Part shown: piece after piece, positions 143-38,836 of the stretch
Position numbering within the stretch: position 1 is the stretch's first letter
How the letters are laid out: each line of letters starts with the position of its first letter
Made by a program: the position numbers and the translations under genes
The notes under the pieces: generated by a model
Told to the model about the DNA's origin: nothing
Databases searched by the model: none
The model's input: the letters and a program-made list of their open reading frames with translations, nothing else
Source: Olsenella uli
Lineage (GTDB): Bacteria > Actinomycetota > Coriobacteriia > Coriobacteriales > Atopobiaceae
Reading direction: 5' to 3'
DNA length: 64,000 nt
NCBI RefSeq assembly: GCF_016899935.1
Contig: NZ_JACJJK010000001.1
Location: 1 to 64,000, forward strand

Positions 143-1168
143 CTAGTCGCGCAGCATCGCGCGCGTGACGTCGGCGACGCTCTCCGCACCGCACATCTCC
201 ATCGCGTCGGCGAGCTCGGCGCGCAGCTGAGCAAGGTAGGCGCGCACACCGTCGGCTCCCCCGCCGAAGGCCGCCACGACGAACGGGCGGCACACGAGGC
301 ACGCGTCCGCCCCGAGCGCGAGCGCGCGGAACACATCGAGGCCGCTCCTGATGCCGCCGTCCACGAGAACGCTCGCCCGGCCGCCCACGGCGTCCGCGAT
401 CTCGGGCAGGACCTCGGCGGTGGCCGGCGTGCCGTCGAGGACGCGCCCGCCGTGGTTGGAGACCACGATCGCGTCGACGCCCGCCTCGACGGCCCTCGCG
501 GCCGCAGCGGCCGTCATGACGCCCTTGAGGACGAACGGGACGCCCTCCTCGTGGCAGCGGGCCGCGATCGCAGCGACCTGGCCCGCGGACTTGGCGCCGG
601 CGGGCGGCTCCTGGCCGCGCAGGAACGGCAGGCCGGCGGCGTCGATGTCCATCGCGACGGCGACGGGCCGCGCGGCGAACGCCTCGTCGAGCTTCGCGGC
701 GAGGGTCCTCTCGTCCCAGGGCTTGACCGTGGGGACGCCGGCGCCGCCGAGCTCGCCGATCAGCGCGCAGGCCTCGCTCATGATCGAGGCGTCGAGGCCG
801 TCGCCCGTGAATGCGAGCGTGCCCTCCCCCGCCGCGGCGGTGAGCACGCAGCGGTTGTAGGAGACGGTGTCGTACTTCTCGCCGTAGTGGCGCTGCACGT
901 CGCCGACCGGGCCGATCATGACCGGCAGGGAGAGCTCGCGCCCGAGCACCTCGGCGCGCGTGTCGGCCGTCCAGCTCTCGTGCAGGGTGTCCATGTTCAC
1001 GCGGAGGCGCTGCCAGGCCTCCCAATTGCGGTGCGCGACGCGACCCACGCCCTTGTCGCCCGGGCCGGGCATGACGCCCGCGCACGCGCGCCCGTCGCAG
1101 ACGGGACACGCCCGGCAGAAGGGCCCGATGGTGCCGCGCGCGGCGGCCGCGAGATCCGCATAGCTCAT
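143..1168 (-). CDS. FMN-dependent alpha-hydroxy-acid oxidase/dehydrogenase (lactate oxidase-like)
   Basis: The 341-residue protein has the (beta/alpha)8 barrel motifs of the FMN alpha-hydroxy-acid dehydrogenase family: Lys215 in FVLKG, the catalytic histidine His239 in SNHGGR, and the flavin-phosphate loop DGGIRSG at 270-276. The family oxidises L-2-hydroxy acids such as lactate to 2-oxo acids; the substrate here cannot be read from the sequence. The N-terminus is odd: Cys18, Cys21, Cys24 and Cys29 lie ahead of the barrel and could bind a metal or Fe-S centre. The ATG at 1168 is preceded by AAAGGA at good spacing, which favours it over longer frames. A hairpin separates it from proS, so it may be transcribed on its own. 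Confidence 0.85.
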   Translation of the reverse strand: MSYADLAAAARGTIGPFCRACPVCDGRACAGVMPGPGDKGVGRVAHRNWEAWQRLRVNMDTLHESWTADTRAEVLGRELSLPVMIGPVGDVQRHYGEKYDTVSYNRCVLTAAAGEGTLAFTGDGLDASIMSEACALIGELGGAGVPTVKPWDERTLAAKLDEAFAARPVAVAMDIDAAGLPFLRGQEPPAGAKSAGQVAAIAARCHEEGVPFVLKGVMTAAAAARAVEAGVDAIVVSNHGGRVLDGTPATAEVLPEIADAVGGRASVLVDGGIRSGLDVFRALALGADACLVCRPFVVAAFGGGADGVRAYLAQLRAELADAMEMCGAESVADVTRAMLRD

Positions 1169-1182
1169 GGTCGTCCTTTCCA

Positions 1183-1216
1183 CACAAGGGCGCCCCGGCG
1201 AGAAGGGCCGGGGCGC
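1183..1216 (-). terminator. Possible terminator after proS
   Basis: A perfect 10-bp stem (GCGCCCCGGC and its complement) with a 7-base loop lies 12 bases past the proS stop codon. Only a weak CCTTGTGT tract follows, so termination may be partial and allow read-through into the oxidase gene. Confidence 0.5.
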
Positions 1217-1227
1217 ACGGGTTCGAC

Positions 1228-2943
1228 TTAGGCGCGGGCGGGAACCACGCGCTCGAGGAGCCAGGCGCAGAGATCGCCCATCGGCACGTCGAAGCGCTCC
1301 CCGGTCTCGCGGACCTTGACCTCGGCCATGCCGTTCGCGACGCCGCGCTTGCCCAGGATCACCTGGTACGGGATGCCGATGAGGTCGGCGTCGGCAAACT
1401 TCACGCCCGGGCGCTCCTTGCGGTCGTCGAGAAGGACCTCGAGGTCGGCGGCGGAGAGCTCCTCCACGACCTTCTCGGCAACCGGGGCCACCACGTCGTC
1501 GTTCACCGCGAGCGGAACGACCTCGACCTCGTAGGGCGCCACGCAGACGGGCCAGGAGATGCCGTGCTCGTCGTTGTGCTGCTCCACGACCGCCGCGAGC
1601 GTGCGGGAGACGCCGATGCCGTAGCAGCCCATGAGGAACGGGCGCTCCACGCCGTCCTCGTCCGCGAAGGTGGCCCCCATCGCCTCGGAGTACTTGGTGC
1701 CGAGCTGGAAGACCTGGGAGACCTCGATGCCGCGGGCGCTCTTGAGCGGAGCGCCGCAGTGCGGGCAGGGGTCGCCGGCCTTCACGCTCACGAGGTCGGC
1801 CCACTCGTCGACCGTGAAGTCGCGGCCGGGGCGGGCGCCCGTGAAGTGGTAGTCCACCTCGTTGGCACCGCAGGTCCAGCTGACGCTCTCGCGCAGGGAC
1901 TCGTCGCAGACCAGGCGCACGCCCTCGGGCAGCCCCACGGGCCCGATGAAGCCCTTGTGCAGGCCGCAGAGCTCGAGCTCCTCATCGGTCATTAGGTGGT
2001 AGGCGCCGAAGAGGTGGCTCGCCTTGATCTCGTTCAGCTCGTGGTCGCCGGGGACAATGGCCACGACGTTCGTGCCGTCCTCGGCGACGAGCGCGAGCGA
2101 CTTGCGCGTGCCGTTCTCCGGGAAGCCGAAGAAGTCCGCCACGGCCTCGATGGAGCCGAGGCCCGGCGTGTGGACCTTCGTGAGCGTGCCGTCGCCGGGG
2201 CCCTCGGTCACGGGCACCTTCGTGGACGCCGCCTCGACGTCCGCGGCGAACCCGCAGTCGCAGTAGACGAGCTCGGCCTCGCCGGAGTCAGCGAGCGCCA
2301 TGAACTCCACCGAGGTGTCGCCGCCGATCTGGCCGGAGTCCGCCACGACGGGCAGCGCGTAGAGGCCGCAGCGCTCGGCGATGCGCGCGTAGGCGGCCTT
2401 CTCCTGCTCGTAGCACTCCTGCAGCGACTCCTGGTCGGCGGAGAAGCTGTAGGCGTCCTTCATGATGAACTCGCGGCCGCGCATGAGGCCGAAGCGCGGG
2501 CGCATCTCGTCGCGGAACTTGTCCTGGATCTGGTAGAGCGTACAGGGCAGCTGCTTGTAGGAGCGCAGCTCGTTCTTCACGAGGTCGGTGAACGTCTCCT
2601 CGTGCGTGGGGCCGAGCGCGAACTCGCGGCCGTGGCGGTCGGCGATGCGCATGAGCTCGGGGCCGTAGGCGCTCCAGCGGCCGGACTCGTGCCAGAGCTC
2701 GGCGGGCGTGAGGATCGGCACCATCATCTCCTGGGCGCCGATCGCCTCCATCTCGTCGCGGATGACGGCCTCGATCTTGTGGATCGAGCGCCAGGCGAGC
2801 GGCAGGTAGCTGTAGAGACCGGCGGCCGTCTTGCGGATCATGCCGGCGCGCAGGAGCAGCCGGTGGCTCGCGAGCTCGGCCTCCGCCGGGTCCTCCTTGA
2901 GCGTGGGAGCATAGAGCTGGGACATCTTCTGGTAGCGCTTCAC
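1228..2943 (-). CDS. proS: Prolyl-tRNA synthetase (bacterial type)
   Basis: The enzyme charges tRNA-Pro with proline in the cytoplasm. Over 571 residues it shows the class II core: motif 2 from Phe143 (FRDEMRPRFG) and motif 3 GCYGIGVSR at 439-447. The YbaK-like editing insertion of bacterial-type ProRS lies at about 225-400 and contains the conserved lysine (near 281) and a CPHC pair at 393-396. An anticodon-binding domain closes the protein. The frame opens with GTG, preceded by GAAGGGA at 7 bases; an in-frame ATG six codons later (MSQLYAPTLKE) is the alternative start. A 250-base gap with a large palindromic repeat separates it from ispG upstream. Confidence 0.97.
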   Translation of the reverse strand: MKRYQKMSQLYAPTLKEDPAEAELASHRLLLRAGMIRKTAAGLYSYLPLAWRSIHKIEAVIRDEMEAIGAQEMMVPILTPAELWHESGRWSAYGPELMRIADRHGREFALGPTHEETFTDLVKNELRSYKQLPCTLYQIQDKFRDEMRPRFGLMRGREFIMKDAYSFSADQESLQECYEQEKAAYARIAERCGLYALPVVADSGQIGGDTSVEFMALADSGEAELVYCDCGFAADVEAASTKVPVTEGPGDGTLTKVHTPGLGSIEAVADFFGFPENGTRKSLALVAEDGTNVVAIVPGDHELNEIKASHLFGAYHLMTDEELELCGLHKGFIGPVGLPEGVRLVCDESLRESVSWTCGANEVDYHFTGARPGRDFTVDEWADLVSVKAGDPCPHCGAPLKSARGIEVSQVFQLGTKYSEAMGATFADEDGVERPFLMGCYGIGVSRTLAAVVEQHNDEHGISWPVCVAPYEVEVVPLAVNDDVVAPVAEKVVEELSAADLEVLLDDRKERPGVKFADADLIGIPYQVILGKRGVANGMAEVKVRETGERFDVPMGDLCAWLLERVVPARA

Positions 2944-3036: not shown

Positions 3037-3170
3037 CCGGCGGGGCGTATCTCCGGCGCTCAGACAGCTTGGCGCAGAGGGCGCGCCAAGAACTCGCGCC
3101 GGAGATACGCCCCGCCGCGAGTTCTTGCCGAGCGTCCTTCTCGGCAAGCTGTCCGAGCGCCGGAGCATAT
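3037..3170. repeat. Nested palindromic repeat (REPIN-like) between ispG and proS
   Basis: Two arms, 3051-3098 and 3116-3165, are reverse complements of each other apart from their loops. Each arm folds into its own hairpin: CTTGGCGC...GCGCCAAG on the left and CTTGCCGAG...CTCGGCAAG on the right. The centre, from about 3099, contains GGAGATACGCCCC, which also pairs with GGGGCGTATCTCC at 3042-3054. The result is two hairpins inside one long inverted repeat, like two REP units head to head. I saw no other copy in the window. It could also affect transcription between ispG and proS. Confidence 0.8.
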
Positions 3171-3194: not shown

Positions 3195-4274
3195 TTAGGA
3201 GAAGCGACGGTCGATCTCGGCAAAGAGCTCGTCGACGGCGTCGGCCTCGTCGACGGTGCGGATCTTCTCGCCCGAGGCGAAGAGCACGGCCTTGCCGCGC
3301 CCGCCCGCGAGGCCGATGTCGGCGCCCTTGGCCTCGCCGGGGCCGTTCACCACGCACCCCATGACGGCCACGGTGATGGGCGCCCGCACGCCGGCCAGGC
3401 GCCGCTCGACCTCGGCGGCCACGCCCATGAGGTCCCACTGGCAGCGGCCGCAGGTGGGGCAGCTCACGAGCTCGGGGCGCAGGCGGCGCAGCCCCACGGC
3501 CGAGAGCAGGTCCCACGCCACGTTGACCTCCTCGACCGGGTCGGCCGTGAGCGAGAGGCGGATCGTGTCGCCGATGCCCTCCATGAGCAGCGCCCCCACG
3601 GCCGCCGCGTTCTTGACGGTCCCCTGGCGGGCCGTGCCGGCCTCGGTCACGCCGACGTGCAGTGGCACGTCCGGCAGCTCACGCGAGAGGGCGCGGTTGA
3701 CCTCCACCGTGGTGGGGACGCCGTGCGCCTTGGCGGAGAGGACGATGTCGGCAAAGCCGCGCTCGCGGAAGTGTGCCACGAAGGAGGTGGCCGAGCCCAC
3801 GAGCTTCTCGACGTGCGTGAGGTCGTCGCGCTCGGCGAAGGCGGGGTCGAGCGAGCCCGCATTCACGCCGATGCGGATCGGGACGCCCGCCGCACCGGCC
3901 TCGTCGATCACGGCGTCGACGCGCTCCCAGCTGCCGATGTTGCCGGGGTTCACGCGCAGCGCCGCAGCGCCGCGTCGGCACGCCTCGATGGCGAGGCGAT
4001 GGTCGAAGTGGATGTCGGCCACCACGGGCAGGGGCGATGCCGCGCAGACCTCCGCAAAGCCGTCGAGCGCCGCGGCGCTCGGGATCGCCACGCGCACGAT
4101 CTCGCAGCCGGCCTCGGCGAGCCGGCCGATCTGGGCGAGCGTGGCGGCGGCGTCGGCGGTGTCGGTCGTGCACATGGACTGCACGGAGACGGGCGCGCCG
4201 CCCCCCACCTGCACGTCCCCCACCCGTACGGGTCTGGTCAGCTCGCGCGGCGCACGCTCGGTTGTGGCTCCCAT
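3195..4274 (-). CDS. ispG: 4-hydroxy-3-methylbut-2-enyl diphosphate synthase (flavodoxin/ferredoxin-dependent)
   Basis: IspG carries out the penultimate step of the MEP isoprenoid pathway, converting methylerythritol cyclodiphosphate to HMBPP with a 4Fe-4S cluster. The 359-residue protein has an N-terminal TIM barrel starting near VSVQSMCTTDT and the C-terminal cluster domain. Its ligands are Cys272 and Cys275 (SCPTC), Cys307 (MGC) and Glu314 (NGPGE). The 7 bases between its ATG and the rseP stop codon suggest co-transcription with rseP-dxr-cdsA-uppS. The IspC homologue, an earlier step of the same pathway, is two genes upstream. Confidence 0.96.
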   Translation of the reverse strand: MGATTERAPRELTRPVRVGDVQVGGGAPVSVQSMCTTDTADAAATLAQIGRLAEAGCEIVRVAIPSAAALDGFAEVCAASPLPVVADIHFDHRLAIEACRRGAAALRVNPGNIGSWERVDAVIDEAGAAGVPIRIGVNAGSLDPAFAERDDLTHVEKLVGSATSFVAHFRERGFADIVLSAKAHGVPTTVEVNRALSRELPDVPLHVGVTEAGTARQGTVKNAAAVGALLMEGIGDTIRLSLTADPVEEVNVAWDLLSAVGLRRLRPELVSCPTCGRCQWDLMGVAAEVERRLAGVRAPITVAVMGCVVNGPGEAKGADIGLAGGRGKAVLFASGEKIRTVDEADAVDELFAEIDRRFS

Positions 4275-4281: not shown

Positions 4282-5667
4282 CTATCCGATAACGAACCTG
4301 ACGATGTCGTTTCTCAGCACGACGACGAAGACGAAGATCAGAAACGCCATGCCGGCGTAGCTCAGGGCGTTCACGACCCTCGGGGAGAGCGGGCGGCGCA
4401 GGACGAGCTGCACGACCTCTATGAGGACCTTGCCGCCGTCGAAGGGCGGGATGGGCAGCAGGTTCATGAAGCCGATCGAGAGGGAGACGGCGGCGACGAT
4501 GACCGCGAGCTCGTAGGCGCCCGCAGAGGCGGCCTCCGACGTCATGACGGCGATGCCCACGACGGAGGAGGACTGGTCGAGGACCTCCATCGTGTGGCTC
4601 GGCTGGATGAGCTGGGCCACGTAGGAGGCGACCTGGCCGACGTAGTCGAACGTGGCCGCCGAGGCCTCGGGCAGCGTGAGGTGGTAGGTGCCCACGGTGG
4701 CCGAGACGCCCACGCGCTCCGTGGGCACGCCGTCGGGGAGGTCGACCGTGGTCGTGGCCTCGGCGCCGTCGCGCTCGTAGGTCACCTCGAAGTCACGTCC
4801 CTCCTCGAGCGGGCCCTCGAGCGCGGCGACGATCTCCTCCCAAGTCCCGACCGGGGTCCCGTCGACCGACGTGAGCGTGTCCCCGGCGCGGATGCCGGCC
4901 TCGTAGGCCGGCGAGCCCGCCTCCACGCCGCCCAGCGTGTTGACGTTGGAGACGTAGTCGACGCCGCGCACCATGAAGACGCCCGTCACGACCACAAAGG
5001 CGAGAAGGACGTTGACCAGCGGCCCCGCGACGAGGATCGCGCAGCGCTTGAGGAAGCCGACGCCCTGGTACGTCCGCGCGCGCTCCCGCGCGAGGAACTC
5101 CTCCGGGGTGAGCCCCGTCTCGCGGGGGCTGCCCGCCTCGCTCGACCCGGGGCGCGAAAAGTCGTGGCCACGGTCGAACTCGGTGAGGAGGTCGGCGTCG
5201 CGCGCGACGGACTCGAAGGCGGCGGGATAGGTCGACTGGTCGGGATGCTCGTCGAGCTCGGGGTCGTAGTAGGGCCTGATGGAGGCCCAGTCGCTCAGGG
5301 TGGCGAGCAGGTCGTAGGCGCGCTCGACGTCCACGTGCAGCTCGTCGGCGACCTCCTGGGCCCGCACCCTCCCCCGCCGCGTGACGAGGTCGAGCGCCGG
5401 GGCGAGAAGCTCGTCTCCCGCGCCCTCCATGCCGCAGATGCGGGTGTAGCCGCCCAGAAGCAGCGGGGTCACGCCGAACTCGGTGCCGACCTTGCGACTC
5501 CGGCGCGAGAGCTTGAGGCGGCAGGGCAGCCCCAGGAAGAACTCGGTCGCCCTCACGCGCAGGGCGCGGGCGACGAGGTAGTGCCCGCCCTCGTGAACGA
5601 AGACGAGCACGGAGAGGACGAGCACGCCCCAGAAGACCGTCCATATGACGCCGAGAAGACCGCTCAT
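4282..5667 (-). CDS. rseP: RIP metalloprotease (site-2 protease family, RseP-like)
   Basis: This is a membrane zinc protease of the site-2 family, which cuts transmembrane segments of anti-sigma factors or remnant signal peptides. The first transmembrane helix carries HEGGH at residues 25-29 (zinc site and catalytic Glu26). The second active-site motif, LLPIPPFDGGK, is near residue 411, close to the C-terminal helices. A PDZ domain lies roughly at 240-320. At 461 residues it is long for the family because of a soluble acidic insert at about 80-200. The ATG overlaps the dxr stop codon by ATGA, implying translational coupling. The substrate is not evident. Confidence 0.9.
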   Translation of the reverse strand: MSGLLGVIWTVFWGVLVLSVLVFVHEGGHYLVARALRVRATEFFLGLPCRLKLSRRSRKVGTEFGVTPLLLGGYTRICGMEGAGDELLAPALDLVTRRGRVRAQEVADELHVDVERAYDLLATLSDWASIRPYYDPELDEHPDQSTYPAAFESVARDADLLTEFDRGHDFSRPGSSEAGSPRETGLTPEEFLARERARTYQGVGFLKRCAILVAGPLVNVLLAFVVVTGVFMVRGVDYVSNVNTLGGVEAGSPAYEAGIRAGDTLTSVDGTPVGTWEEIVAALEGPLEEGRDFEVTYERDGAEATTTVDLPDGVPTERVGVSATVGTYHLTLPEASAATFDYVGQVASYVAQLIQPSHTMEVLDQSSSVVGIAVMTSEAASAGAYELAVIVAAVSLSIGFMNLLPIPPFDGGKVLIEVVQLVLRRPLSPRVVNALSYAGMAFLIFVFVVVLRNDIVRFVIG

Positions 5668-6860: not shown

Positions 6861-7807
6861 AGCATGCCTCCGAGAAAGAGTAGGAAGAGCGCGGCCGTGC
6901 CGCCGAAGAGCATCGAGTCGGAGCGGTCGAGCAGGCCGCCGTGCCCGGGCAGGACGTTGCCGGAGTCCTTGACGCCCGCGCCGCGCTTGAGACGCGACTC
7001 GAAGAGGTCGCCGAAGACCGAGACGGCGCCGACCACGAGGCCAAAGAGGGCGGCCGTCAGGGGGTCGAGCCCGTCGACGCCAAAGAGGGCGAGGAGGACC
7101 CATATGAGCACCGAGCCCACGAGGCCACCGAGGAAGCCCTCGACGCTCTTGTTGGGCGAGATGCGGGGCGCGAGCTTGTGGGAGCCAATCGCGGACCCGA
7201 CGAGGTAGGCGAACGCGTCGTTGGCCCAGATCGAGAACATGACGCCGAGGGTGAGGATCGCCCCGGGAAGGCCCGGGTCCGCCTTCCTGATCAGGATGAC
7301 GCTCGCGAAGGCGAGCGAGGTGTAGAGCGGCCCGAAAGCGGTGACGGAGACGTCGGCGATGTTGGCGCGCGGCGCGAACACGTACCAGCAGGCGCACGCC
7401 ACAAGCAGGAGCAGGACGATCAGCGCGCAGGCGACAAGTCCATGGACGTAGGCGGCCGCCGGGAAGAGCAGCGCGGCGGCGAGGCCCAGCGTCTCGTTGG
7501 GCATGCGCCCGCCCATGCGGCAGATCCTGAAGAACTCCGAGCAGCACAGCCAGGCCTCCGCCGTCACGAGGACCGCGGTGGGGATGGGGCCGGCGAGGAC
7601 GCAGGCGAGCGTCACGATGGCGTAGATGGCGCCCGAGGTGGTTCTCGTGAGGAGCTTCTCGGCGGAGCTGCGCGCCTTCTGCCCCCTGAGGTCGCCCGCC
7701 GCGCGGGCCTCCTCCTTGGAGGCGCGCCGCCCCTCGAGCCGGTCGATCTGTCGGTCGAGCCCGACGCCGCGCCCCTGCTCCCGGTCCCTGTCGGTGACGT
7801 CGCTCAC
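6857..7807 (-). CDS. cdsA: Phosphatidate cytidylyltransferase
   Basis: CdsA makes CDP-diacylglycerol from phosphatidic acid and CTP at the membrane. The 316-residue product has a charged soluble N-terminus of about 65 residues and then several hydrophobic segments. It ends with the CDP-diglyceride synthetase signature: LKRGAGVKDSG followed by PGHGGLLDRSDS. I place the start at the GTG at 7807 because it overlaps the uppS stop (GTGA), the coupling pattern used across this operon; the longer open frame has no better start. Confidence 0.93.
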   Translation of the reverse strand: MSDVTDRDREQGRGVGLDRQIDRLEGRRASKEEARAAGDLRGQKARSSAEKLLTRTTSGAIYAIVTLACVLAGPIPTAVLVTAEAWLCCSEFFRICRMGGRMPNETLGLAAALLFPAAAYVHGLVACALIVLLLLVACACWYVFAPRANIADVSVTAFGPLYTSLAFASVILIRKADPGLPGAILTLGVMFSIWANDAFAYLVGSAIGSHKLAPRISPNKSVEGFLGGLVGSVLIWVLLALFGVDGLDPLTAALFGLVVGAVSVFGDLFESRLKRGAGVKDSGNVLPGHGGLLDRSDSMLFGGTAALFLLFLGGML

Positions 7808-8589: not shown

Positions 8590-9134
8590 TAGATCTCCAT
8601 GACCTCGGCGCTCTTGGCCTTGAGCAGCTCGTCGATCTTGGCGACGTAGGAGTCGGTGACCTTCTGGACGGCCTTCTTCTCGCGCGACTGCTCGTCGTCG
8701 GAGAGCTCCTCGTCGCGCTCGATCTTGCCGTTCACGTCGCGGCGGACGTTGCGGACGGCCACGCGGGCCTCCTCGGCGATCTCCTTGCACTCCTTGACGA
8801 GCTCCTTGCGGCGCTCCTCGGTGGGCTTGGGGAACGGCAGGCGGATCGAGACGCCGTCGTTGGACGGGGTGATGCCGAGGTCGGAGCTCTCGATGGCCTT
8901 CTCGATCGCGCGCAGGGCGCTCTTGTCCCACGGCTCCACGACGAGCATGGACGCCTCGGGGACCTTGATGCCCGCGAGCTGCGTGATGGGCGTGGGCTGG
9001 CCGTAGTAGTCGACCATGATGGGCGCGAGGATCTGCGCGTTGGCGCGGCCGGTGCGCACGCGGGCGAAGTTGGCCTTGAGCGTGTCGAGGCACTTGCCCA
9101 TGTTCTTCTCGGCGCGGTCGGTGTACTGGCTCAT
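8589..9134 (-). CDS. frr: Ribosome recycling factor
   Basis: Frr acts with EF-G to split post-termination ribosomes. At 181 residues it is close to the usual 185. The family sequence is recognisable from the N-terminal helix (AEKNMGKCLDTLKANFARVRTGRAN) through LAGIKVPEASMLVVEPWD to the C-terminal helices rich in charged residues. Its ATG lies just after the pyrH stop, giving the widespread order pyrH-frr-uppS-cdsA. Confidence 0.97.
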   Translation of the reverse strand: MSQYTDRAEKNMGKCLDTLKANFARVRTGRANAQILAPIMVDYYGQPTPITQLAGIKVPEASMLVVEPWDKSALRAIEKAIESSDLGITPSNDGVSIRLPFPKPTEERRKELVKECKEIAEEARVAVRNVRRDVNGKIERDEELSDDEQSREKKAVQKVTDSYVAKIDELLKAKSAEVMEI

Positions 9135-9859: not shown

Positions 9860-9992
9860 TGGGACCTCGCTTTCGTCGGCCCCTCGCGTAAGGGGCGGGT
9901 AATGTCCTCCCGTGATTCTAGCAGAGCGCGGGCCGGGCGCGCCGGCGGCGTCACGTCTGCGGCCGGCCGAGAAGGACCGGGGTGCGTCCATG

Positions 9993-11929: not shown

Positions 11930-12868
11930 TCACGCGCGCGGGTGGGCGCTCCGGGCCGCCTCCTTGAGGCGATCGACCGAGAGGTGCGTGTAGACCTGGG
12001 TCGTGGCGAGGCTCTCGTGGCCGAGAAGCTCCTGCACGCTCCTGAGGTCGGCTCCCCCGCCGAGAAGCTCCGTCGCAAAGGTGTGGCGCATCGCGTGTGG
12101 GGTGAGGCTGGGGTCGAGGCGCGCCTCGGCCACCCGGCGCTCGAAGACGGTCCGCAGCGCGTCTGCGGACATGCGGTTGCCGCGCGTCGAGAGGAGGAGC
12201 GCCTCGGTGGGGCGGCCCGGCCGCACGAGCGCGCCTCTCCCCCGCTCCACGTAGGCCCGGACGCGCTCGAGGGCGCTGGGGTAGACGGGGACGACGCGCT
12301 CCTTCGACCCCTTGCCGAAGAGCCTGACCTGGCCCTGCGAGAAGTCCACGTCGAGGAGGGAGAGCCCGGATACCTCAGAGACGCGCGCGCCCGTCGCGTA
12401 GAGGAGCTCGAGGAAGGCGCGGTCCCTCAGACTCACGGGGTCGTCTCCCTCGCAGGTGGCGAGCAGGGCGTCCGCCTCGGCGGCGGACATCGTCTTGGGC
12501 AGGGTCCGCGAGAGCTTGGGGCTCGCCACCGCCGCCACGGCGGCCGAGTCGCAGCGCCCCTCGCGCAGCATCCAGCGGAAGAGGCCGCGCAGGGCGGAGA
12601 GATGGCGCGCCACCGTGCGCGTGGAGTAGCCCGCGCGGGAGAGCTCGAGGAGATAGGCGCGCAGGTCGCGGTGCGTGAGCCCTCCCGGCGAGACGCCCTC
12701 CCGCGCGCACCAGGCGAGAAACGCGAGAAGGTCCTCGCGGTACGCGCGGACGGTGTTCTCCGAGAGGTGGCGGACGCTCGCGAGGTGCGCCGCGTAGTCC
12801 TCGACGTCGCGCGCGAAGGCGGCGCGCTCCTCCTCGCGCCGGAGCGCCTGCTCCGTCCGCTCGGTCAT
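11930..12868 (-). CDS. xerC: Tyrosine recombinase, XerC/XerD type
   Basis: The 312-residue protein has the core-binding SAM-like domain (about 20-105) and a catalytic domain with all tyrosine-recombinase residues: Arg162 (GARVSE), Lys186/Lys189 (GKGSKER), His258 and Arg261 (HAMRHT), His284 (LLGHESL) and Tyr293 (VYTH). It probably resolves chromosome dimers at dif. No dif site was recognised nearby. Its ATG overlaps the trmFO stop codon (ATGA). The trmFO-xerC pairing is a known conserved order. Choosing XerC over XerD is by context only. Confidence 0.88.
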   Translation of the reverse strand: MTERTEQALRREEERAAFARDVEDYAAHLASVRHLSENTVRAYREDLLAFLAWCAREGVSPGGLTHRDLRAYLLELSRAGYSTRTVARHLSALRGLFRWMLREGRCDSAAVAAVASPKLSRTLPKTMSAAEADALLATCEGDDPVSLRDRAFLELLYATGARVSEVSGLSLLDVDFSQGQVRLFGKGSKERVVPVYPSALERVRAYVERGRGALVRPGRPTEALLLSTRGNRMSADALRTVFERRVAEARLDPSLTPHAMRHTFATELLGGGADLRSVQELLGHESLATTQVYTHLSVDRLKEAARSAHPRA

Positions 12869-14225: not shown

Positions 14226-15125
14226 TCAGCTCGCTCCATTGTGCCCCAAGTAGTAGCTCCGCGTCGGCGCGTAGCGGCCGTCGGGGAGACGCTCCACGAT
14301 ACCTCTCGCCTCGTAGTCCGTCAGGGTCCGGATGACGGTCAGCACGCTCTCGTTGAGGCGCTCGGCGAGCTCGTCGGCGCGGGAGGGCGAGGCGACGAGG
14401 GCCGAGACGACCGGGCCGTACTCGCGCGCGACCCCTGCCGGCGCCATGCGCGCGAGCCCGTAGTCGAGCGCGAGGGAGACGGCGAGCGCCTGCTCGTCCG
14501 CGATGACGCGCGCGCCCTCCGCGATGAGGCGGTTCGTCCCCGCCGAGGTGGGCGAGAAGATCGAGCCCGGGACCGCGTAGACGATCCGGTCGAGCTCGCT
14601 CGCGGCGTCCGCCGTCGACATCGTCCCCGAGCGCAGGCCCGCCTCGGTGACGACGAGGACCTCGGAGAGCGCGGCGATGACGGCGTTTCTCCTCGGGAAG
14701 CTCCAGCGTCTCGGCCCCCTCCCCCACGGCTCCAGGGACACGACCGCGCCCCCGTGCGCGACCGCCCCGTCGAAGAGGTCGCGCGACGACTGCGGGTACA
14801 CGAGGTCGGCCCCGCACCCCGAAACGACGACGGTCCGTCCCCCGCCCCTGAGCGCCGCCATGCCTGCGGCGTGGTCGCACCCCAGCGCGCCGCCCGAGAC
14901 GACGGTGACGCCGCACTCCGCGGCCACCCGCGCGGCCATCTCGGCCACCGCCAGGCCGTAGGGCGTCGCCCTTCTCGCCCCCACGACCGAGAGGCAGGGG
15001 CCCTCGAGCGCCTCCGGGCTCCCGATCCCGAAGATGCGGTCGGGCGGCGCGGGGAGGTCCTCGAGACGGGCGGGATACCCCGCGTCCCCGCGCGCGAGCT
15101 CCCACCGTTCGCTGGCGTCACGCAT
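14226..15125 (-). CDS. dprA: DNA-processing protein DprA
   Basis: DprA protects incoming single-stranded DNA and loads RecA during transformation. The 299-residue protein has the Rossmann-like domain with SVVGARRATPYG, VVSGGALGCDHAAGMAAL, FPRRNAVIAALS and EAGLRSGTM. It ends with a winged-helix domain (LNESVLTVIRTLTDYEARGIVERLPDGRY). The ATG at 15125 has GAAGGGG at 8 bases; a GTG three codons earlier overlaps the comM stop and is the alternative. It sits directly after comM. Confidence 0.93.
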   Translation of the reverse strand: MRDASERWELARGDAGYPARLEDLPAPPDRIFGIGSPEALEGPCLSVVGARRATPYGLAVAEMAARVAAECGVTVVSGGALGCDHAAGMAALRGGGRTVVVSGCGADLVYPQSSRDLFDGAVAHGGAVVSLEPWGRGPRRWSFPRRNAVIAALSEVLVVTEAGLRSGTMSTADAASELDRIVYAVPGSIFSPTSAGTNRLIAEGARVIADEQALAVSLALDYGLARMAPAGVAREYGPVVSALVASPSRADELAERLNESVLTVIRTLTDYEARGIVERLPDGRYAPTRSYYLGHNGAS

Positions 15126-19566: not shown

Positions 19567-20601
19567 CTAGCGTCGCTTCCAGGACTGGGGGATCTTGAGG
19601 TCCTCGTAGACGCACACGGCGTAGCGGTCCGTCATGCCCGAGACGAAGTCCGCGACCTGCACCTCGGGCTTGTCGCCGTCATGCACGCGGTACTCGTCCG
19701 GCACCTCGTCGAGGTGGGTGACGAAGTGGTCGAAGAGCTCTCCGAGCATGGCGTAGGCCTTGGGCTCCTCCCACTTGGCGTCGCCGCGCGAGTAGAGGTT
19801 CTCGAAGAGGAACGCCCTGAGGGACATCATCGCGCGCCACACGTCGTCGGACATGCGCACGTCGCCGGTCTCGGCGCTGCTGGAGACGACGTCGTGCACC
19901 ATCGTCTCGATGCGCTCCGAGGAGCTGCCGCCGAGGACGGCGCGCGGACCCTCGGGCAGGTCCTTCTCGGCGAGAAGCCCCGCGCGCTCCGCGTCGTCGA
20001 TGTCGTGGCACACGTAGGCGATGCGGTCCGAGAGGGCCACGACCCTGCCCTCCAGCGTGGCGGCCCTCTGCGCCCCCGTATGGCAGCGTATCCCGTCGAC
20101 GACCTCGCGCGAGAGGTTGAGGCCGCGCCCGTCGCGCTCCAGCAGCTCCACGATGCGGGCGCCCTGCTCGTTGTGGGCGAACTGCCGCCCCCGCCCGTCC
20201 GTGCCGCGATAGCGCGCGAGGGCGTTGGAGAGGGCGCGCTCCCCCACGTGCCCGAAGGGCGTGTGGCCGAGGTCGTGGGCGAGCGCGATCGCCTCGGTCA
20301 GGTCCTCGTTGAGGCCGAGGGGGCGCGCTATGGAGCGCGCGACCTGGGAGACCTCGAGGGTGTGGATCAGCCGGGTCCGGTAGTGGTCCCCCTCGGGGGC
20401 GAGAAACACCTGCGTCTTGTGGGCCAGGCGCCGGAAGCTCTTGCTGTGGAGGATGCGGTCCCGGTCGCACTGGAAGCAGGTCCTCAGGGCGTCCGGCTCC
20501 TCCGGCGTGCGCCGCCCGGCCGAGGCGTCGGCGAACGCGGCGTCCGGGGAGAGCCGCTCGTGCTCCGCCCGCTCCAGGTCGACGCGGCGTGTGACCCTCA
20601 T
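19567..20601 (-). CDS. dgt: dGTPase-like HD-domain triphosphohydrolase
   Basis: The family hydrolyses dNTPs to nucleosides and triphosphate. The 344-residue protein has the HD metal site: His in RLIHTLEVSQV, the His-Asp pair in ALAHDLGHTPFGH, and a distal Asp in LSDRIAYVCHDIDD. The length fits the shorter class-2 dGTPase-like proteins. AGGAGG precedes the ATG. In many genomes this gene precedes dnaG; here a DUF6273-like gene follows instead. A 29-base palindrome and the ppdK terminator lie just upstream. Confidence 0.9.
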   Translation of the reverse strand: MRVTRRVDLERAEHERLSPDAAFADASAGRRTPEEPDALRTCFQCDRDRILHSKSFRRLAHKTQVFLAPEGDHYRTRLIHTLEVSQVARSIARPLGLNEDLTEAIALAHDLGHTPFGHVGERALSNALARYRGTDGRGRQFAHNEQGARIVELLERDGRGLNLSREVVDGIRCHTGAQRAATLEGRVVALSDRIAYVCHDIDDAERAGLLAEKDLPEGPRAVLGGSSSERIETMVHDVVSSSAETGDVRMSDDVWRAMMSLRAFLFENLYSRGDAKWEEPKAYAMLGELFDHFVTHLDEVPDEYRVHDGDKPEVQVADFVSGMTDRYAVCVYEDLKIPQSWKRR

Positions 20602-20620: not shown

Positions 20621-20649
20621 GCCTAAAAGGGGTCAGACCCCTTTTAGGC
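20621..20649. repeat. 29-base palindromic repeat, copy 1
   Basis: Arms GCCTAAAAGGGGTC and their exact complement flank a single A. It lies between dgt and ppdK and directly abuts the ppdK terminator on the high-coordinate side. The bases AGAACGT immediately before it (20614-20620) are shared with copy 4, so the conserved unit is a little longer than the palindrome. Confidence 0.95.
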
Positions 20650-20709: not shown

Positions 20710-23469
<2,760 letters not shown>

Positions 23470-24115: not shown

Positions 24116-26212
24116 CTATTTCTTGCGGGAGAGCGCGCCGATGTCGGCGACGCCCACGAAGACCTCAACAAAGCGGTTGAGGAGGCGCAGGCGGTTCTCC
24201 CTTACCGCAGTATCCTCGTCCATGACAAGCACGTCGTCGAAGAATCGGTCGATGGGCGCTCTGAGTTCGGCAAGGGCGGTCAGCGCGGCGGCGTAGTCGT
24301 CCTTCTCGAGCGCCGCGCAGACGGCGGCCGAGCCCCGCTCGCAGGCCGCAAGCAGGCTCCGCTCGGCGTCGCCGAGAAGGGCCTCGTCCACGGCGGAGCC
24401 CAGGGAGGCGTCGGTCAGGTGGGCGGCGCGGGCGTAGGCGGTGGCGAGGTCGTCGAAGAGCTCCGGGCTCTGCGAGCGCGCATCCTCGAGGGCGTGCGCG
24501 CGGGCCATGAACTCGATCGGGTTGACGACGCCCACGGCCGAGACGGCCTCGATCGTGTCCGGGCGCAGCCCCTCGTCGCGCGCGATGGCCACGAGGCGCC
24601 CCTGGAAGAAGCGCGCGATCGCGGCGGAGACGGACGCGCGGTCGAACTCGAGCCCCTGGTCCGCGTAGGCGTCGAGCGCGAGGTCGATCAGGGACCGCAG
24701 GTCGCAGCCCGGCAGCGTGCGCAGCATCGCGATGACGCCGATGGCGGCGCGGCGCACGGCGTAGGGGTCGGAGGAGCCGGTGGGCGGCTCGTCGATCGCG
24801 AAGATGCCGCAGACGGTGTCCAGCTTGTCGGCGATGGCCACGCAGCGCCCGCAGGTGCCGCCCGGCAGCTCGTCGCCCGCGAAGCGCGGGCGGTAGTGCT
24901 CGCGGATCGCGGAGCAGACCTCGGGGGCCTCGCCGGCGGCCTGGGCGTAGTAGCCGCCCATCACGCCCTGCTGGTTGGTGAACTCGACGACGGCCTGGGA
25001 GACGAGGTCGGCCTTGGCCAGGTGCGCGGCGCGCGCGGCGGCCGCGACGCCAGCCTCGTCCTCCCCCGCCTGCTCGGCGACCGCGGCGGCCAGGCGCTCC
25101 ATGCGCGCGACCTTCTGGAGCATCGTGCCGAGGCGCTCCTGGAACGTGACCGAGCCCAGGCGCTCCACGAACTCCTCCATCGGGCGCTTGAGGTCCTCCT
25201 CGTAGAAGAACTTGGCGTCGTCCAGGCGGGCGCGCACCACGCGCTCGTTGCCGGAGACCACGGTCGCCGAGACGCGCGGGTCGGCGTTGGAGACCACCAC
25301 GAACTCGCGCGTCAGGTTGCCCTGGGCGTCGTAGACCGGGAAGTAGCGCTGGTTGGAGAGCATGGACTCGCAGATGATCTCGTGCGGGACCTCGAGGAAG
25401 GAGGCGTCGAAGGTGCCCACGAGGACCGTCGGCCACTCGCAGAGGTTCACGACCTCGTCGAAGATGCGCCGGGGGGTGTCCACGTGCGCCCCGTCGCGCT
25501 CCGCCTCGATCTTCTCGATGCCCGCGCGGATGACCTCGGCGCGGCGCTCGGCCGAGAGCACGAAGGCGCGCTCAAGGGTGGCCTCGTAGTCGGCGGGGCA
25601 GGCCACGACGTGCTCGCCGGGGGCCAGCACGCGGTGGCCGCGCGTGGTGTTGCCGGAGGTGACGTCGGCGTAGGTCACGGGGACCACGTCCGTGCCGAGA
25701 AGCGCGCAGATCCAGCGGATCGGCCGCACGAAGGTGGCGTGCTCGGAGCCCCAGCGCTGGCTGCGGTAGTTGGGCCACTGCAGGCCGCCGATCACGTCGG
25801 CGGAGAGCGCGGAGAGGATGGGGGCGGCGGGCTCGGAGGGGACGCTGCGCTCGGCGAAGACGTACTCGCTGCCGTCGGCGTCCACGCGGCGCACGAGGTC
25901 GGCGGCGTCGACGCCGCACTTGCGGGCGAAGCCGAGCGCGGCCTTGGTGGGCGCGCCGTCCGCGTCGAAGGCGATGCCGGCCTTGGGGCCGCGCTTGACC
26001 TCGTTGACCTCGTCGGTGGCCGTGGCCACGTCGGAGACCAGCGCGGCGAGGCGGCGCGGCGTGGAGATGACGCGCACCTCGCCGTGGGCGAGGCCGGCGG
26101 CGTCGAGCCCCTTGGCCACGAGGCCGCCGAGCTGCTGGGCGGCGTTCATGAGCGGCGCCGAGGGCATCTCCTCGGTGCCGATCTCGAGCAGGAAGTCACG
26201 GGTCTCGGCCAT
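24116..26212 (-). CDS. glyS: Glycyl-tRNA synthetase beta subunit
   Basis: The beta subunit of the alpha2-beta2 GlyRS binds tRNA-Gly. The 698-residue protein begins DFLLEIGTEEMPS and contains the HD-like region (CGRCVAIADKLDTVCGIFAI) and a C-terminal anticodon-binding domain ending VMDEDTAVRENRLRLLNRFVEV-like, as in the family. Its ATG immediately follows the glyQ stop codon, so the subunits are translated together. Confidence 0.96.
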   Translation of the reverse strand: MAETRDFLLEIGTEEMPSAPLMNAAQQLGGLVAKGLDAAGLAHGEVRVISTPRRLAALVSDVATATDEVNEVKRGPKAGIAFDADGAPTKAALGFARKCGVDAADLVRRVDADGSEYVFAERSVPSEPAAPILSALSADVIGGLQWPNYRSQRWGSEHATFVRPIRWICALLGTDVVPVTYADVTSGNTTRGHRVLAPGEHVVACPADYEATLERAFVLSAERRAEVIRAGIEKIEAERDGAHVDTPRRIFDEVVNLCEWPTVLVGTFDASFLEVPHEIICESMLSNQRYFPVYDAQGNLTREFVVVSNADPRVSATVVSGNERVVRARLDDAKFFYEEDLKRPMEEFVERLGSVTFQERLGTMLQKVARMERLAAAVAEQAGEDEAGVAAAARAAHLAKADLVSQAVVEFTNQQGVMGGYYAQAAGEAPEVCSAIREHYRPRFAGDELPGGTCGRCVAIADKLDTVCGIFAIDEPPTGSSDPYAVRRAAIGVIAMLRTLPGCDLRSLIDLALDAYADQGLEFDRASVSAAIARFFQGRLVAIARDEGLRPDTIEAVSAVGVVNPIEFMARAHALEDARSQSPELFDDLATAYARAAHLTDASLGSAVDEALLGDAERSLLAACERGSAAVCAALEKDDYAAALTALAELRAPIDRFFDDVLVMDEDTAVRENRLRLLNRFVEVFVGVADIGALSRKK

Positions 26213-27720: not shown

Positions 27721-28461
27721 CTAGCTCCTCCCGTCGTCGGTCAGGGAACGGACGTAGGCGCGCTCCTCCTCGGAGAGCGGCGCGCCGTCGAGCAGGTCGG
27801 GCCGCCAGCGCGCGGTGCGCTCGAGCGCGCTCAGCCGGCGCCACCGTGCGACGCGGGCGTGGTCGCCGGACAGCAGCACCTCGGGCACGTCCATCCCCCG
27901 GTAGCTGGCCGGGCGGGTGTACTGGGCGTACTCGAGCAGGCCGGCGTCCGGCGAGAAGGACTCGTCGACGGCGCTCATCTCGTCGCCGAGGGCGCCGGGA
28001 AGGAGGCGCACGACGGAGTCGATCACCACGAGCGCCGCGAGCTCGCCGCCCGTGAGCACGTAGTCCCCCAGCGAGAAGACGTCGTCGGCGAGGGCGTAGA
28101 CGCGCTCGTCCATGCCCTCGTAGCGCCCGCAGACGAGAAGGACCCGCTCCTCGCGGGCCAGGCGCTCGGCGGCGCGCTGGTCGTAGGGCGTCCCGCAGGG
28201 CGAGAAGAACACGACGTGCGGGCGCTCCCCGCGCGCGGCGAGGTCGTCGACCGCCTCGAAGACGGGCGCGGGCTTCATCAGCATGCCCTGCCCGCCGCCG
28301 AACGGGGCGTCGTCCACGGTCCGGTGGCGGTCGTGGGTCCAGTCGCGCAGGTTGTGGGCGACGAAGTCGAAGACGCCCGCGCGCCGCGCGCGCCCCATGA
28401 TCGAGGCGTCGAGGTAGGGCGCGAAGACGTCGGGGATGACGGAGAGGGTCTCGAACAGCAT
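27721..28461 (-). CDS. trmD: tRNA (guanine-N1)-methyltransferase
   Basis: TrmD methylates G37 of tRNAs with a G at position 36, preventing frameshifts. The 246-residue protein has the SPOUT trefoil-knot motifs LVCGRYEGMDERV, LGDYVLTGGELAALV and PPASYRGM-like (RPASYRGMDVPEVLLSG). The ATG at 28461 is preceded by GGGAG at 8 bases; a GTG overlapping rimM would add five residues. It lies between rimM and lepB. Confidence 0.96.
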   Translation of the reverse strand: MLFETLSVIPDVFAPYLDASIMGRARRAGVFDFVAHNLRDWTHDRHRTVDDAPFGGGQGMLMKPAPVFEAVDDLAARGERPHVVFFSPCGTPYDQRAAERLAREERVLLVCGRYEGMDERVYALADDVFSLGDYVLTGGELAALVVIDSVVRLLPGALGDEMSAVDESFSPDAGLLEYAQYTRPASYRGMDVPEVLLSGDHARVARWRRLSALERTARWRPDLLDGAPLSEEERAYVRSLTDDGRS

Positions 28462-28466: not shown

Positions 28467-28982
28467 TCACTCCCACTCGAGCCCGGCGGGCACGCGCACG
28501 GGGATGGGGCCGTCCTCGGGGACGTCGGGCACGACCTCGTCCACGACGGGCAGGAGCAGCTCGCCGCGCGCGCCGCGCAGGACCCAGACGTCATTGGCCG
28601 GGCCGGTCATGACCTCAGCGATCCGGGCGGGCTCGCCGCTCTTCTCGTCGCGCACCTCGCGGCCCAGAAGGCGGTCGGGGTCGTGCCGGGCGAGGTCCGC
28701 CGGGAGGTCGGCCACGCGCGCGAGCAGGGTCCTGCCGACGAGGCGCTCGGCGGCGGAGAGGTCGTCCACGCCGCTCAGCGCGACGAGCGAGCCCGCGCGG
28801 CCGTCCGAGGCGCACGACAGGACGCGGTGCCAGCGGTCCCCACGCAGCTCGGGCGGCACCACGGCGACCTCGAGTCCCTCATGGACGAGCGGGGGAAGGC
28901 CGTGAACGGGAACCGTCACGACCTCCCCCCGCCTCCCGTGCGTCTTCTCGACACGGGCTATGCTCCTGAAGCGGTCTCGCAT
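28467..28982 (-). CDS. rimM: 16S rRNA maturation protein RimM
   Basis: RimM binds S19 and assists 30S maturation. The 171-residue protein has the N-terminal domain starting RFRSIARVEKTHGRRGEV, DDLSAAERLVGR in the middle and a PRC-barrel C-terminus ending LLLPVVDEVVPDV. Length is normal. It lies 6 bases after khpA and 5 before trmD in the usual rpsP-khpA-rimM-trmD order. Confidence 0.94.
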   Translation of the reverse strand: MRDRFRSIARVEKTHGRRGEVVTVPVHGLPPLVHEGLEVAVVPPELRGDRWHRVLSCASDGRAGSLVALSGVDDLSAAERLVGRTLLARVADLPADLARHDPDRLLGREVRDEKSGEPARIAEVMTGPANDVWVLRGARGELLLPVVDEVVPDVPEDGPIPVRVPAGLEWE

Positions 28983-30544: not shown

Positions 30545-31774
30545 ATGCTCGCCCGGCTGCGCAGGGAGTTCATCGCGATCACGATGCTGCTCGTGGGCCT
30601 CGTGCTGCTCGGGGTCCTCGGCGCGGTCTTCGTGGGCAACGCGCTCACGCTGCACGCGGTGACCGCGCGGATCCTCGACCGGGCGATCGAGGGCGACATC
30701 ACCTCGGCCCAGATCGGCGACACGACGGGCGAGCAGAGCGCCGAGGTCATGCTCGCCGTGGTGGTGGAGATCGCCCCGGACGGGACCGCGCTCGCCGTGA
30801 GCGGGTCTCCGGTCTCCATCCCCGCCGACACCCTCGACGACGTGGTGGCGGAGGTGCTCGCCTCCCCCGCCGATGCCGGGGAGTGCGCGGACTACCCCAT
30901 CTCCTGGCGGCGCGCGGCGACGCCCTACGGCTGGCGGCTCGCCCTCGTGGACACCTACTCGCGCGACGCCGCGCTGCGCTCGCAGGCGCTGAACGGCCTC
31001 GTCGTGTTTCTCGTCTCGATGGGCGTCCTCTTCCTGGTCTCCTACGTGCTCTCAGGCTGGGCCCTGCGCCCCGTCGAGCGCGCCTGGGAGCAGCAGCGCC
31101 GCTTCGTCTCGGACGCCTCGCACGAGCTCAAGACGCCGCTCGCGGTCATTCTCGCCAACACGCAGATCTTGGAGCGGGAGCACCGCGTCGACGAGGAGTC
31201 CCTGCGCTGGGTTAAGAGCACGCGCGAGGAGGCCTCCCACATGAAGAGCCTCGTCGAGGACCTGCTCACCCTCGCCCGGGCCGACGAGGGGGCCGGCTCG
31301 GGCGGCTCCGGCGACGGCGCGCCGAAGGAGACGGTCGACCTGAGCGCGCTCGTCTCGGGGTGCTGCCTCGAGTTCGACGCCGTGGCGTTCGAGCGGGGCT
31401 GCTCAATCCGCCCCGAGCTCCTCCCCGGCGTCACGGCACGCGTCCGCCCGGACGACTACCGGCGCGTGGTCAGGACGCTGCTGGACAACGCGACCAAGTA
31501 CGCCCGCGCGGGCACCGCCGTGAGCGTGCGCCTGGACCGCGACGGCCGGCGCTCGAGGCTCGTGGTCGCCAACCTCGGCGACGTCATCTCCCCCGCTGAG
31601 CTCGAGCACCTCTTCGATCGCTTCTACCGCACCGACCGGGCGCGCGAGCGCTCCGCCGAGGGCGGCTTCGGCCTTGGCCTTGCCATCGCGAAGGCGCTGG
31701 TCGAGGGCGCCGGCGGCACGATCTCGGCCACCTCGGGCGAGCGCGAGGGCACCACCTTCACCGTCCTCCTCTGA
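30545..31774 (+). CDS. Sensor histidine kinase
   Basis: The 409-residue membrane kinase has transmembrane helices at about 10-32 and 150-172 enclosing a roughly 115-residue extracytoplasmic sensor. A short HAMP-like link is followed by the HisKA domain with phospho-His193 in DASHELKTPLAV. The HATPase domain has DNATKYA and GGFGLGLAIAKALVE. It partners the regulator just upstream. The sensor region has no domain I recognise. Its TGA is 1 base from a palindromic repeat that separates it from the convergent dinB. Confidence 0.94.
   Translation: MLARLRREFIAITMLLVGLVLLGVLGAVFVGNALTLHAVTARILDRAIEGDITSAQIGDTTGEQSAEVMLAVVVEIAPDGTALAVSGSPVSIPADTLDDVVAEVLASPADAGECADYPISWRRAATPYGWRLALVDTYSRDAALRSQALNGLVVFLVSMGVLFLVSYVLSGWALRPVERAWEQQRRFVSDASHELKTPLAVILANTQILEREHRVDEESLRWVKSTREEASHMKSLVEDLLTLARADEGAGSGGSGDGAPKETVDLSALVSGCCLEFDAVAFERGCSIRPELLPGVTARVRPDDYRRVVRTLLDNATKYARAGTAVSVRLDRDGRRSRLVVANLGDVISPAELEHLFDRFYRTDRARERSAEGGFGLGLAIAKALVEGAGGTISATSGEREGTTFTVLL

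Positions 31775-37369: not shown

Positions 37370-38836
<1,467 letters not shown>

Follow-up and report, generated by a model that had tools for sequence, protein, structure and literature searches.

Within the first 64,000 nucleotides of contig NZ_JACJJK010000001.1 from Olsenella uli (assembly GCF_016899935.1; this whole stretch, of 71% GC, is further termed the window), a xerC gene spells its leucine and phenylalanine codons in a peculiar way: the plus strand at 12680-12740 reads GGCGAGAAACGCGAGAAGG, which on the minus strand, in the gene, becomes CTT-CTC-GCG-TTT-CTC-GCC. The gene was assigned to the XerC family by a family search, its product being 79% identical to the XerC of Atopobium sp. 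UBA1382 and 69% to that of Olsenella profusa. What imposes such codons on this genome? An earlier, sequence-only reading had proposed that a selected DNA word, the heptamer CGAGAAR, overrides codon preference here and across the window, with uptake, repair, segregation or methylation as its possible functions. The present analysis indicates that a word, longer than that heptamer, does override codon choice, and that the bias is probably (about two chances in three) the coding-strand trace of a putative DNA uptake sequence, i.e., of a word that would work like the DNA uptake sequences (DUS) and uptake signal sequences (USS) and is treated here as their analogue, not as a member of either group.

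From codon choice to a DNA word

The genes of the window were called anew, which gave 58 of them. Overall, CTT accounts for 85 of their 1433 CTT and CTC codons; before CTC it accounts for 30 of 54. CTT was found to be chosen in 28 of the 38 CTY-CTC-G contexts and in 2 of the 16 CTY-CTC-[ACT] contexts, and GTT stands before CTC only once in 42 cases, which together point to the word CTTCTCG and not to a rule that would favour NNT before CTC; such a general preference is ruled out by the GTT figure. After codons had been permuted among synonymous positions within each gene (the codon-shuffled null), 10.2 sense-strand copies of CTTCTCG were expected, whereas 44 are present, the highest z among the 7-mers. 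Since this null is exceeded, the claim that a DNA word overrides codon choice is supported, CTT-CTC being the trace of an interspersed word, and the tally that accompanied it, eight CTT codons in 58-64 kb with five of them before CTC, proved exact. The other two codon pairs that had been named, TTT-CTC and AGA-AAC, are raised in the window as well (TTT in 11 of 38 TTY-CTC pairs vs. 46 of 570 overall; AGA in all 7 of the AGA or AGG codons before AAC vs. 22 of 107), but they are weaker evidence than CTT-CTC-G. In a larger sample of the same genome (482 kb, composed of C49, the 407-kb contig that holds the window, and contig C10), TTT precedes CTC in 67 of 256 cases, not above its share before GCC (82/289) or GGC (97/361), so that the phenylalanine part of the bias lacks specificity. 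An elevated share of GGA before AAC (10/17 vs. 376/2507) makes AGA-AAC partly a different effect.

The word itself has the core GNCGAGAARNNC, the strong form GSCGAGAAGRACG and a length of 12-13 bp, so the heptamer that had been taken for the word is real as its core and no more than that. The core was derived by comparing genera and consists of CGAGAAR with G at position −2 and C at +9, the latter having a frequency of 0.90 in this genome and 0.71 in a relative of 45% GC. The strong form is the consensus of aligned non-coding copies, whose 20-bp flanks hold no larger repeat. In the window there are 68 exact copies of GNCGAGAARNNC, 34 per strand and three of them between genes, compared with 4 copies of the reversed word that served as a control; in the whole genome (2.1 Mb) there are 2440 vs. 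132, which corresponds to approximately 1.15 copies per kb on both strands. Within the 482 kb of this 70% GC genome the most frequent exact 10-mer is CGAGAAGGAC, with 159 occurrences.

The excess was also judged against a codon shuffle in genes and against order-2 or third-order models in non-coding DNA. The non-coding part, 54.5 kb by the gene calls, holds 156 copies of CGAGAAG vs. 33 expected (third-order model) and 130 exact copies of GNCGAGAARNNC vs. 3.2 (order-2 simulation), the latter an approximately 41-fold excess; forms with one mismatch number 97 vs. 52 (1.9-fold) and those with two mismatches 415 vs. 416 (1.0-fold). On the antisense strand of coding sequences the codon shuffle, a check that the sequence-only reading had suggested, gives 234 exact copies vs. 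24.5 expected (24.2 in another run), 433 vs. 350 with one mismatch and 2404 vs. 2424 with two, and CGAGAAGRAC is found 81 times vs. 5.6. The sense strand shows a smaller excess (217 vs. 125), because Glu-Lys, written GAG-AAG, forces many of its copies. From the sharp excess of exact copies, accompanied by a slight shoulder of one-mismatch forms, we infer the trace of a word kept by a recognition process.

The 140 words of the same composition as CGAGAAG showed no common behaviour when used as controls, so the second outcome that would have refuted the sequence-only reading did not occur either. In non-coding DNA CGAGAAG ranks first among them (156 vs. 15.1, 10.3-fold, order 2; the median is 0.84). 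Antisense in genes (312 vs. 84.6) no control exceeds its z of 31, and its ratio of 3.7 is surpassed just by that of GCGAGAA (3.8), a heptamer overlapping the same word; 2.9 comes third, and the median is 1.05. A point against reading the heptamer as a word is that, with both gene strands pooled, CGAGAAG comes only 9th of 140 (1.84-fold), an effect of the sense strand, where forced Glu-Lys copies dilute the excess.

Orientation, relatives and turnover

Orientation and dispersion were examined in the 482 kb and in 160 kb of a second genome of the genus, G006. Of 384 copies of CGAGAAGRRC, 273 lie inside genes, where 133 are sense and 140 antisense; tandem gaps hold 34 copies along transcription and 35 opposite to it, divergent gaps 18 and convergent gaps 24. 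Expressed per kb, the density is 1.96 in tandem, 1.48 in divergent and 3.62 in convergent gaps, and 0.64 in genes. In those 20-kb blocks of the two genomes that have a clear majority gene strand, the majority strand carries 294 copies and the opposite one 286 (p 0.77), which reveals no strand bias, origin and terminus being unmapped. Forward and reverse copies of GNCGAGAARNNC are equally numerous in single-contig genomes (901/927 in G006, 766/783 in G186), although equal counts over a whole circle are compatible with opposite skews of the two replichores. The number of copies per 10 kb has a mean of 11.9 and a variance of 10.0; as these are close, the copies are dispersed about as by chance, and the coefficient of variation of the gaps (1.03 for CGAGAAGRRC, 0.91 for CGAGAAG) likewise indicates near-random and not regular spacing. 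Pairs closer than 60 bp are direct in 19 cases and inverted in 18, without inverted bias. Strand neutrality and dispersion make the word a poor fit to a promoter, a terminator, a translation signal, or an oriented signal such as Chi, the FtsK orienting polar sequences (KOPS) or the SpoIIIE recognition sequences (SRS).

The word is common to many relatives that range from 45 to 70% GC, is present in one genus as a dialect and is missing from some. The 197 genomes of the order were scanned for GNCGAGAARNNC and its reversed control. Twelve genomes of the same genus contain 1128-2627 copies vs. 113-178, and comparable figures were obtained for other genera, given here by working labels: g23 (1549-1701 vs. 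141-158, three genomes), g27 (1560-1914 vs. 129-145, four), g18 (828-1116 vs. 79-109, five, 45% GC in the one sampled), g17 (913-923 vs. 120-151, two), g33 (1674 vs. 106), g32 (991 vs. 61), g25 (793 and 1617 vs. 77 and 177), g66 of another family, f10 (1270-1346 vs. 107-143, three genomes), and g3 of a third family (1265 vs. 175). Counts at or near the control characterize g34 (67 vs. 75), g21 (221-370 vs. 147-203), g2 of family f2 (29 vs. 47) and family f7 (13 vs. 42), and the remaining genomes of the order have intermediate ratios. In high-GC genomes Glu-Lys codons alone, by inflating the sense strand, should produce ratios of about 2-4, and such values in other families were therefore not taken as presence of the word. 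When samples of 37-482 kb were compared with an order-2 model, GGCGAGAAG proved 4.5- to 29-fold enriched in g1, g23, g27, g25, g33, g18 and g66 of f10, and 1.0- to 3.1-fold in g17, g26, g19, g21, g29, g35 of f10 and g50 of f2. The 45% GC relative has 19 copies of it vs. 0.7 expected; the same core is thus prominent at 45% and at 70% GC, and neither composition nor codon usage explains the word. For the low-GC relative G071 the gene caller, based on GC at third codon positions, was unsuited (74 of 100 kb were called non-coding), and its non-coding counts were left unused. Beyond the class the word is rare: other Actinomycetota (12 loci, 209 kb) contain 21 copies (control 2; 0.10 per kb), and other or unnamed phyla (62 loci, 996 kb) contain 52 (control 33; 0.05 per kb).

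The dialect emerged from a scan of an 81-genome sample of the family. Both genomes of g17 carry TGCCGAGAAR, 681 and 679 times vs. 9 and 8 for the control, and GGCGAGAAR just 94 and 72 times vs. 67 and 61; in the O. uli genome the former occurs 117 times (control 3) and the latter 1223 times (control 87). The dialect form, written out as TGCCGAGAAG, therefore has an identical core and a different flank, and g17, with its two genomes, is the one clear dialect genus.

How are copies gained and lost? The gap between pyrH and tsf, which holds a copy in the window, was aligned for 27 loci of the genus, the O. uli one included (30 loci were retrieved from 30 of 31 genomes, and L229, L250 and L251, cut or partial, were excluded). 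Ten of the 27 contain CGAGAAG, seven of them as full words, at four aligned positions occupied in 3, 4, 1 and 2 loci. Between L228 and L225 a single base at the site makes or breaks the word, and a number of intragenic sites, a single step away from CGAGCAG, hold a copy in one or two species. In this small sample, copies are apparently gained and lost through point mutations, and no mobile unit seems to insert them.

A putative uptake sequence and its alternatives

Several features by which DUS and USS are recognized in sequence are found here: about one copy per kb, far above chance, on both strands, inside and between genes. To these are added dialects with a fixed core, absence from some relatives and the presence of a transformation apparatus, and it is on this combination that the uptake-sequence reading is based; among the functions that had been listed for the word, uptake fits best. 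That the word is a selected one, as was also proposed, does not follow, because an uptake word can build up through biased transformation as well.

According to the accessible part of a 2025 paper, uptake words are known from just two families, Neisseriaceae and Pasteurellaceae (PMC12616744). The DUS of Neisseriaceae resembles the present word in being short, present in thousands of copies, divided into dialects round an invariant core and missing from some family members; eight such dialects share a CTG core (PMC3630211). It is also orientation-neutral, with copies in and outside genes, and the available text of another study holds this unbiased orientation and intragenic location against roles of uptake words in transcription or replication (PMC1939737). 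The USS of Pasteurellaceae is likewise a highly enriched word of approximately 9-12 nt, with types that share an inner core, but it reads AAGTGCGGT or ACAAGCGGT with the core GCGG, as far as the consulted section of the report states (PMC12616744). The present word differs from it in its core, CGAGAAR flanked by G at −2 and C at +9; it is also unrelated in sequence to the DUS and belongs to another phylum. Whereas in Neisseriaceae a type IV pilus with ComP serves uptake, the genes found here are those of a Tad/Flp-like pilus and of ComEA-ComEC. The host lineage, Coriobacteriia, is one that we take to be monoderm, unlike Neisseriaceae. To our knowledge, no uptake word has been reported for Micrococcus luteus. 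This actinobacterium takes up DNA via ComEA, ComEC and Flp pili and without comG, to judge from the accessible text (PMC6370729), and genes of the same types (comEA, comEC, Flp/Tad) are present here.

In the O. uli genome comEA adjoins comEC (G000:C131), and a pair of T2SSF proteins lies beside a TadA-like ATPase, an arrangement read, from gene order and sequence by eye, as a Tad/Flp-like system. The window itself contains dprA, a candidate machinery gene separate from the word, whose score is just below the curated TIGR00732 cut-off of 191.15 bits (Table 1). Across the order, ComEC was found in 188 of 197 genomes, and all genomes tested for ComEA (20) or for T2SSF (15) were positive. Since wordless genomes possess this machinery as well as word-bearing ones, it is compatible with the uptake reading without proving it.

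The proposed sequence of events is as follows. Either a DNA-binding surface subunit belonging to the Tad/Flp-like pilus or a receptor of the ComEA type would bind the word in free DNA; the bound DNA would then enter via ComEA-ComEC and be protected by DprA, recombination following (the genes are present, the activity is presumed). DNA of kin that carries the word would be taken up more often, so that point mutations creating the word would spread and copies would accumulate where they are tolerated. The pattern seen is that copies are densest between genes and at freely varying codon positions, regardless of strand. Dialects would bias each genus toward the DNA of its own kin.

Several observations weigh against this explanation. 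Among genomes of the order, competence genes do not correlate with the word, and the nearly wordless g34, g21 and g29 keep ComEC, T2SSF and ComEA, a comparison that is uninformative since ComEC is almost universal; many competent bacteria have no uptake word. No gene or receptor tracking the word was found in the tad loci of 12 genomes, which were inspected by eye over at most 3.4 kb, the O. uli locus being cut at a contig end and no Flp model being used. In loci L213, L212, L218, L221, L220, L210, L211 and L216 the Flp pilin is followed by a conserved protein (approximately 150-190 aa) whose motif resembles GYLDLLGxxWxCxVxGxxWVD. It occurs in word-bearing and wordless genera alike. In g19 the counts of GNCGAGAARNNC are high (689 vs. 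54 and 533 vs. 45), yet GGCGAGAAG is only 2.1-fold enriched in a 100-kb sample without any outstanding word, which means that the reversed control is no clean divider between genera; within the genus itself, G143 has far fewer strong words (255 vs. 47). All ten copies in the pyrH-tsf gap have the same orientation, and some are common to several species, surely shared by descent; the three at the first position lie inside the tsf terminator hairpin. An uptake word would be expected to be depleted in recently acquired DNA; low-GC segments do hold fewer copies, a weak tendency confounded by composition, and the Pfam phage portal PF04860 was not found in the 10 genomes of the order searched, G000 included, which may indicate that prophages of this kind are uncommon there. 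Finally, the literature searched contained no work on transformation in this group.

The main rival takes the word for a site bound, all over the chromosome and on both strands, by an intracellular protein that is nucleoid-associated or acts in compaction or partition. It agrees with the contig-wide, strand-unbiased spread, the genus dialects could track a co-evolving protein, and a compaction or replication role was an older idea for uptake words, as the available text of PMC1939737 recounts. Nevertheless, we regard it as unlikely: the spacing is near random and not regular, and the occupancy of a given gap differs among congeners. Moreover, known sites of parS, MatP and SlmA type number far below the more than 2000 copies present in 2.1 Mb.

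A word of recombination or segregation, i.e., Chi-like (RecBCD/AddAB) or KOPS/SRS-like (FtsK/SpoIIIE), appears quite improbable. Words of these classes are expected to be oriented, and the SRS of Bacillus subtilis is skewed along its genome; the absence of strand bias described above, with origin and terminus unmapped, thus disfavours both the segregation and the Chi-like repair function that had been listed for the word. The SRS, GAGAAGGG, has GAGAAG in common with the core, an overlap that can be traced in the consulted part of PMC5869595. The SRS directs a motor and the word here is strand-neutral; furthermore, the SRS includes neither the position, −1, at which the dialect differs nor the conserved C at +9. 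Equally improbable is a regulatory element, a terminator or a repeat of the repetitive extragenic palindromic (REP) or miniature inverted-repeat transposable element (MITE) type. Its support comes from the density, which is higher in non-coding than in genic DNA and highest in convergent gaps, and from the copies in the tsf terminator hairpin of 3 of the 27 congeners; it is opposed by equal orientations with respect to transcription, the prevalence of intragenic copies, the lack of a longer conserved unit in the flanks and the balance of direct and inverted close pairs.

Codon-pair or translational bias, or context-dependent mutation, would leave CTT-CTC as a by-product of CTCC/CCTCC avoidance. 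The sense strand of the window genes does avoid CCTCC (128 vs. 254.8), CTCCT (97 vs. 168.5) and CTCCTC (42 vs. 95.5), perhaps as words resembling anti-Shine-Dalgarno sequences, a pattern that recalls the codon-pair avoidance, CUCC included, covered in the accessible part of Tats et al. (2008; PMC2585594). CTT is elevated before CCC (53/140) and CTG (53/167) too, which was attributed to CTCC avoidance as an effect distinct from the word. The effect is real and still contributes to the Leu-Leu counts, but as the sole cause of CTT-CTC it is insufficient, given the dependence on G after CTC and the rarity of GTT-CTC. As a whole explanation it is refuted, and its chance is slight in the extreme, since the 41-fold excess in non-coding DNA is not confined to reading frames and the word recurs at 45% GC. 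That the word is recognized by a restriction-modification system, or by a methylation system of another kind, is hardly credible either: non-palindromic sites do exist for Type I and Type III systems, but restriction predicts avoidance where an approximately 40-fold enrichment is seen, methylation, which had been on the list of functions, gives no prediction of enrichment, and a degenerate site of 12-13 bp common to many genera is unlike such systems. CCGCGG offers a contrast, being strongly avoided as if a restriction system had acted (446 vs. 1032 expected on both strands of C49; 37 vs. 120.6 in window genes), with seven other GC-only palindromes near expectation.

With slightly less confidence than the uptake-sequence reading itself, but still more probably than not, the word would represent a third uptake-sequence system of independent origin, unprecedented both outside Proteobacteria and among monoderm lineages, with a receptor on a Tad/Flp pilus and with genus dialects acting as mating barriers among Coriobacteriia; as far as was found, it would also be the first in Actinomycetota. 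No such word for Coriobacteriia or Olsenella was met in the literature searched, which took in few subscription papers and no bioRxiv preprints; an earlier mention elsewhere is possible. Uptake words are a textbook example of self-recognition in bacterial sex, and an independent case would test whether they originate by receptor bias and transformation drive or by selection. It would also open a search for a Tad/Flp pilus receptor that reads sequence, and would predict which Coriobacteriia are transformable and by what DNA, which would be useful for the genetics of the group.

Word copies and other repeats

Table 1. Word copies (exact matches to GNCGAGAARNNC) and related features, in window coordinates.
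Feature	Position	Strand	Remark
Word copy	872..883	-	
Word copy	1197..1208	+	intergenic
Word copy	1426..1437	+	
Word copy	1468..1479	-	
Word copy	3134..3145	-	intergenic
Word copy	3261..3272	-	
Word copy	3801..3812	-	
Word copy	4999..5010	+	strong form GGCGAGAAGGAC
Word copy	5401..5412	+	
Word copy	5650..5661	+	
Word copy	7652..7663	-	
Word copy	9102..9113	-	
Word copy	9966..9977	+	intergenic, pyrH-tsf gap
Word copy	12020..12031	+	
Word copy	12059..12070	+	
Word copy	12713..12724	+	GGCGAGAAACGC, xerC, starting site of the analysis
Bare core CGAGAAG	12724..12730	+	second core, without G at −2, not a full word
dprA	14226..15125	-	DNA-processing protein of transformation; NCBIfam TIGR00732, E 5.6e-54, 182.7 bits
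Word copy	14551..14562	+	in dprA
Word copy	14968..14979	-	in dprA
Word copy	19960..19971	-	
Word copy	19969..19980	+	
Word copy	20398..20409	+	
Word copy	21406..21417	+	
Word copy	21589..21600	-	
Word copy	22840..22851	-	
Word copy	22936..22947	-	
Word copy	24371..24382	+	
Word copy	25694..25705	+	
Word copy	27950..27961	+	strong form
Word copy	28132..28143	+	
Word copy	28199..28210	+	strong form
Word copy	28638..28649	-	
Word copy	31004..31015	-	
Word copy	32523..32534	+	
Word copy	33081..33092	-	
Word copy	34101..34112	+	strong form
Word copy	34200..34211	-	
Word copy	35128..35139	+	
Word copy	36263..36274	+	
Word copy	38309..38320	-	
Word copy	39272..39283	-	
Word copy	39410..39421	-	
Word copy	39970..39981	+	
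Word copy	42334..42345	+	
Word copy	44259..44270	+	
Word copy	45457..45468	+	
Word copy	46200..46211	-	
Word copy	46323..46334	-	
Word copy	47723..47734	+	
Word copy	47775..47786	-	
Word copy	48771..48782	-	
Word copy	49702..49713	+	
Word copy	49729..49740	+	
Word copy	51815..51826	-	
Word copy	52585..52596	+	
Word copy	52597..52608	-	
Word copy	54073..54084	-	
Word copy	55262..55273	+	
Word copy	56154..56165	+	strong form
Word copy	56322..56333	+	
Word copy	57416..57427	-	
Word copy	59076..59087	-	
Word copy	60015..60026	-	
Word copy	60843..60854	-	
Word copy	60996..61007	-	
Word copy	62311..62322	+	
Word copy	62961..62972	-	
Word copy	63139..63150	-	
Word copy	63248..63259	-	

Other repeats occur in the same DNA. 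The palindromic repeat GCCTAAAAGGGGTCAGACCCCTTTTAGGC, a near-perfect inverted repeat, has six copies in the window (20621-20649, 31776-31804, 33112-33140, 38808-38836, 51310-51338 and a degenerate one ending at 51394) and more along C49; one copy has a single exact arm and one a changed centre. It is either similar to REP elements associated with RAYT (REP-associated tyrosine transposase) or a terminator. An unrelated 31-bp repeat family, distinct from the word, carries GACAAGG. Imperfect arrays with a unit of approximately 31 bp and with GACAAGGGC and GATTCC blocks lie on C49 outside the window, at about 78.98-79.4, 244.7-245.0, 251.1-251.5 and 372.0-372.2 kb; in the array at 79 kb, the one that was read, the orientation switches midway.

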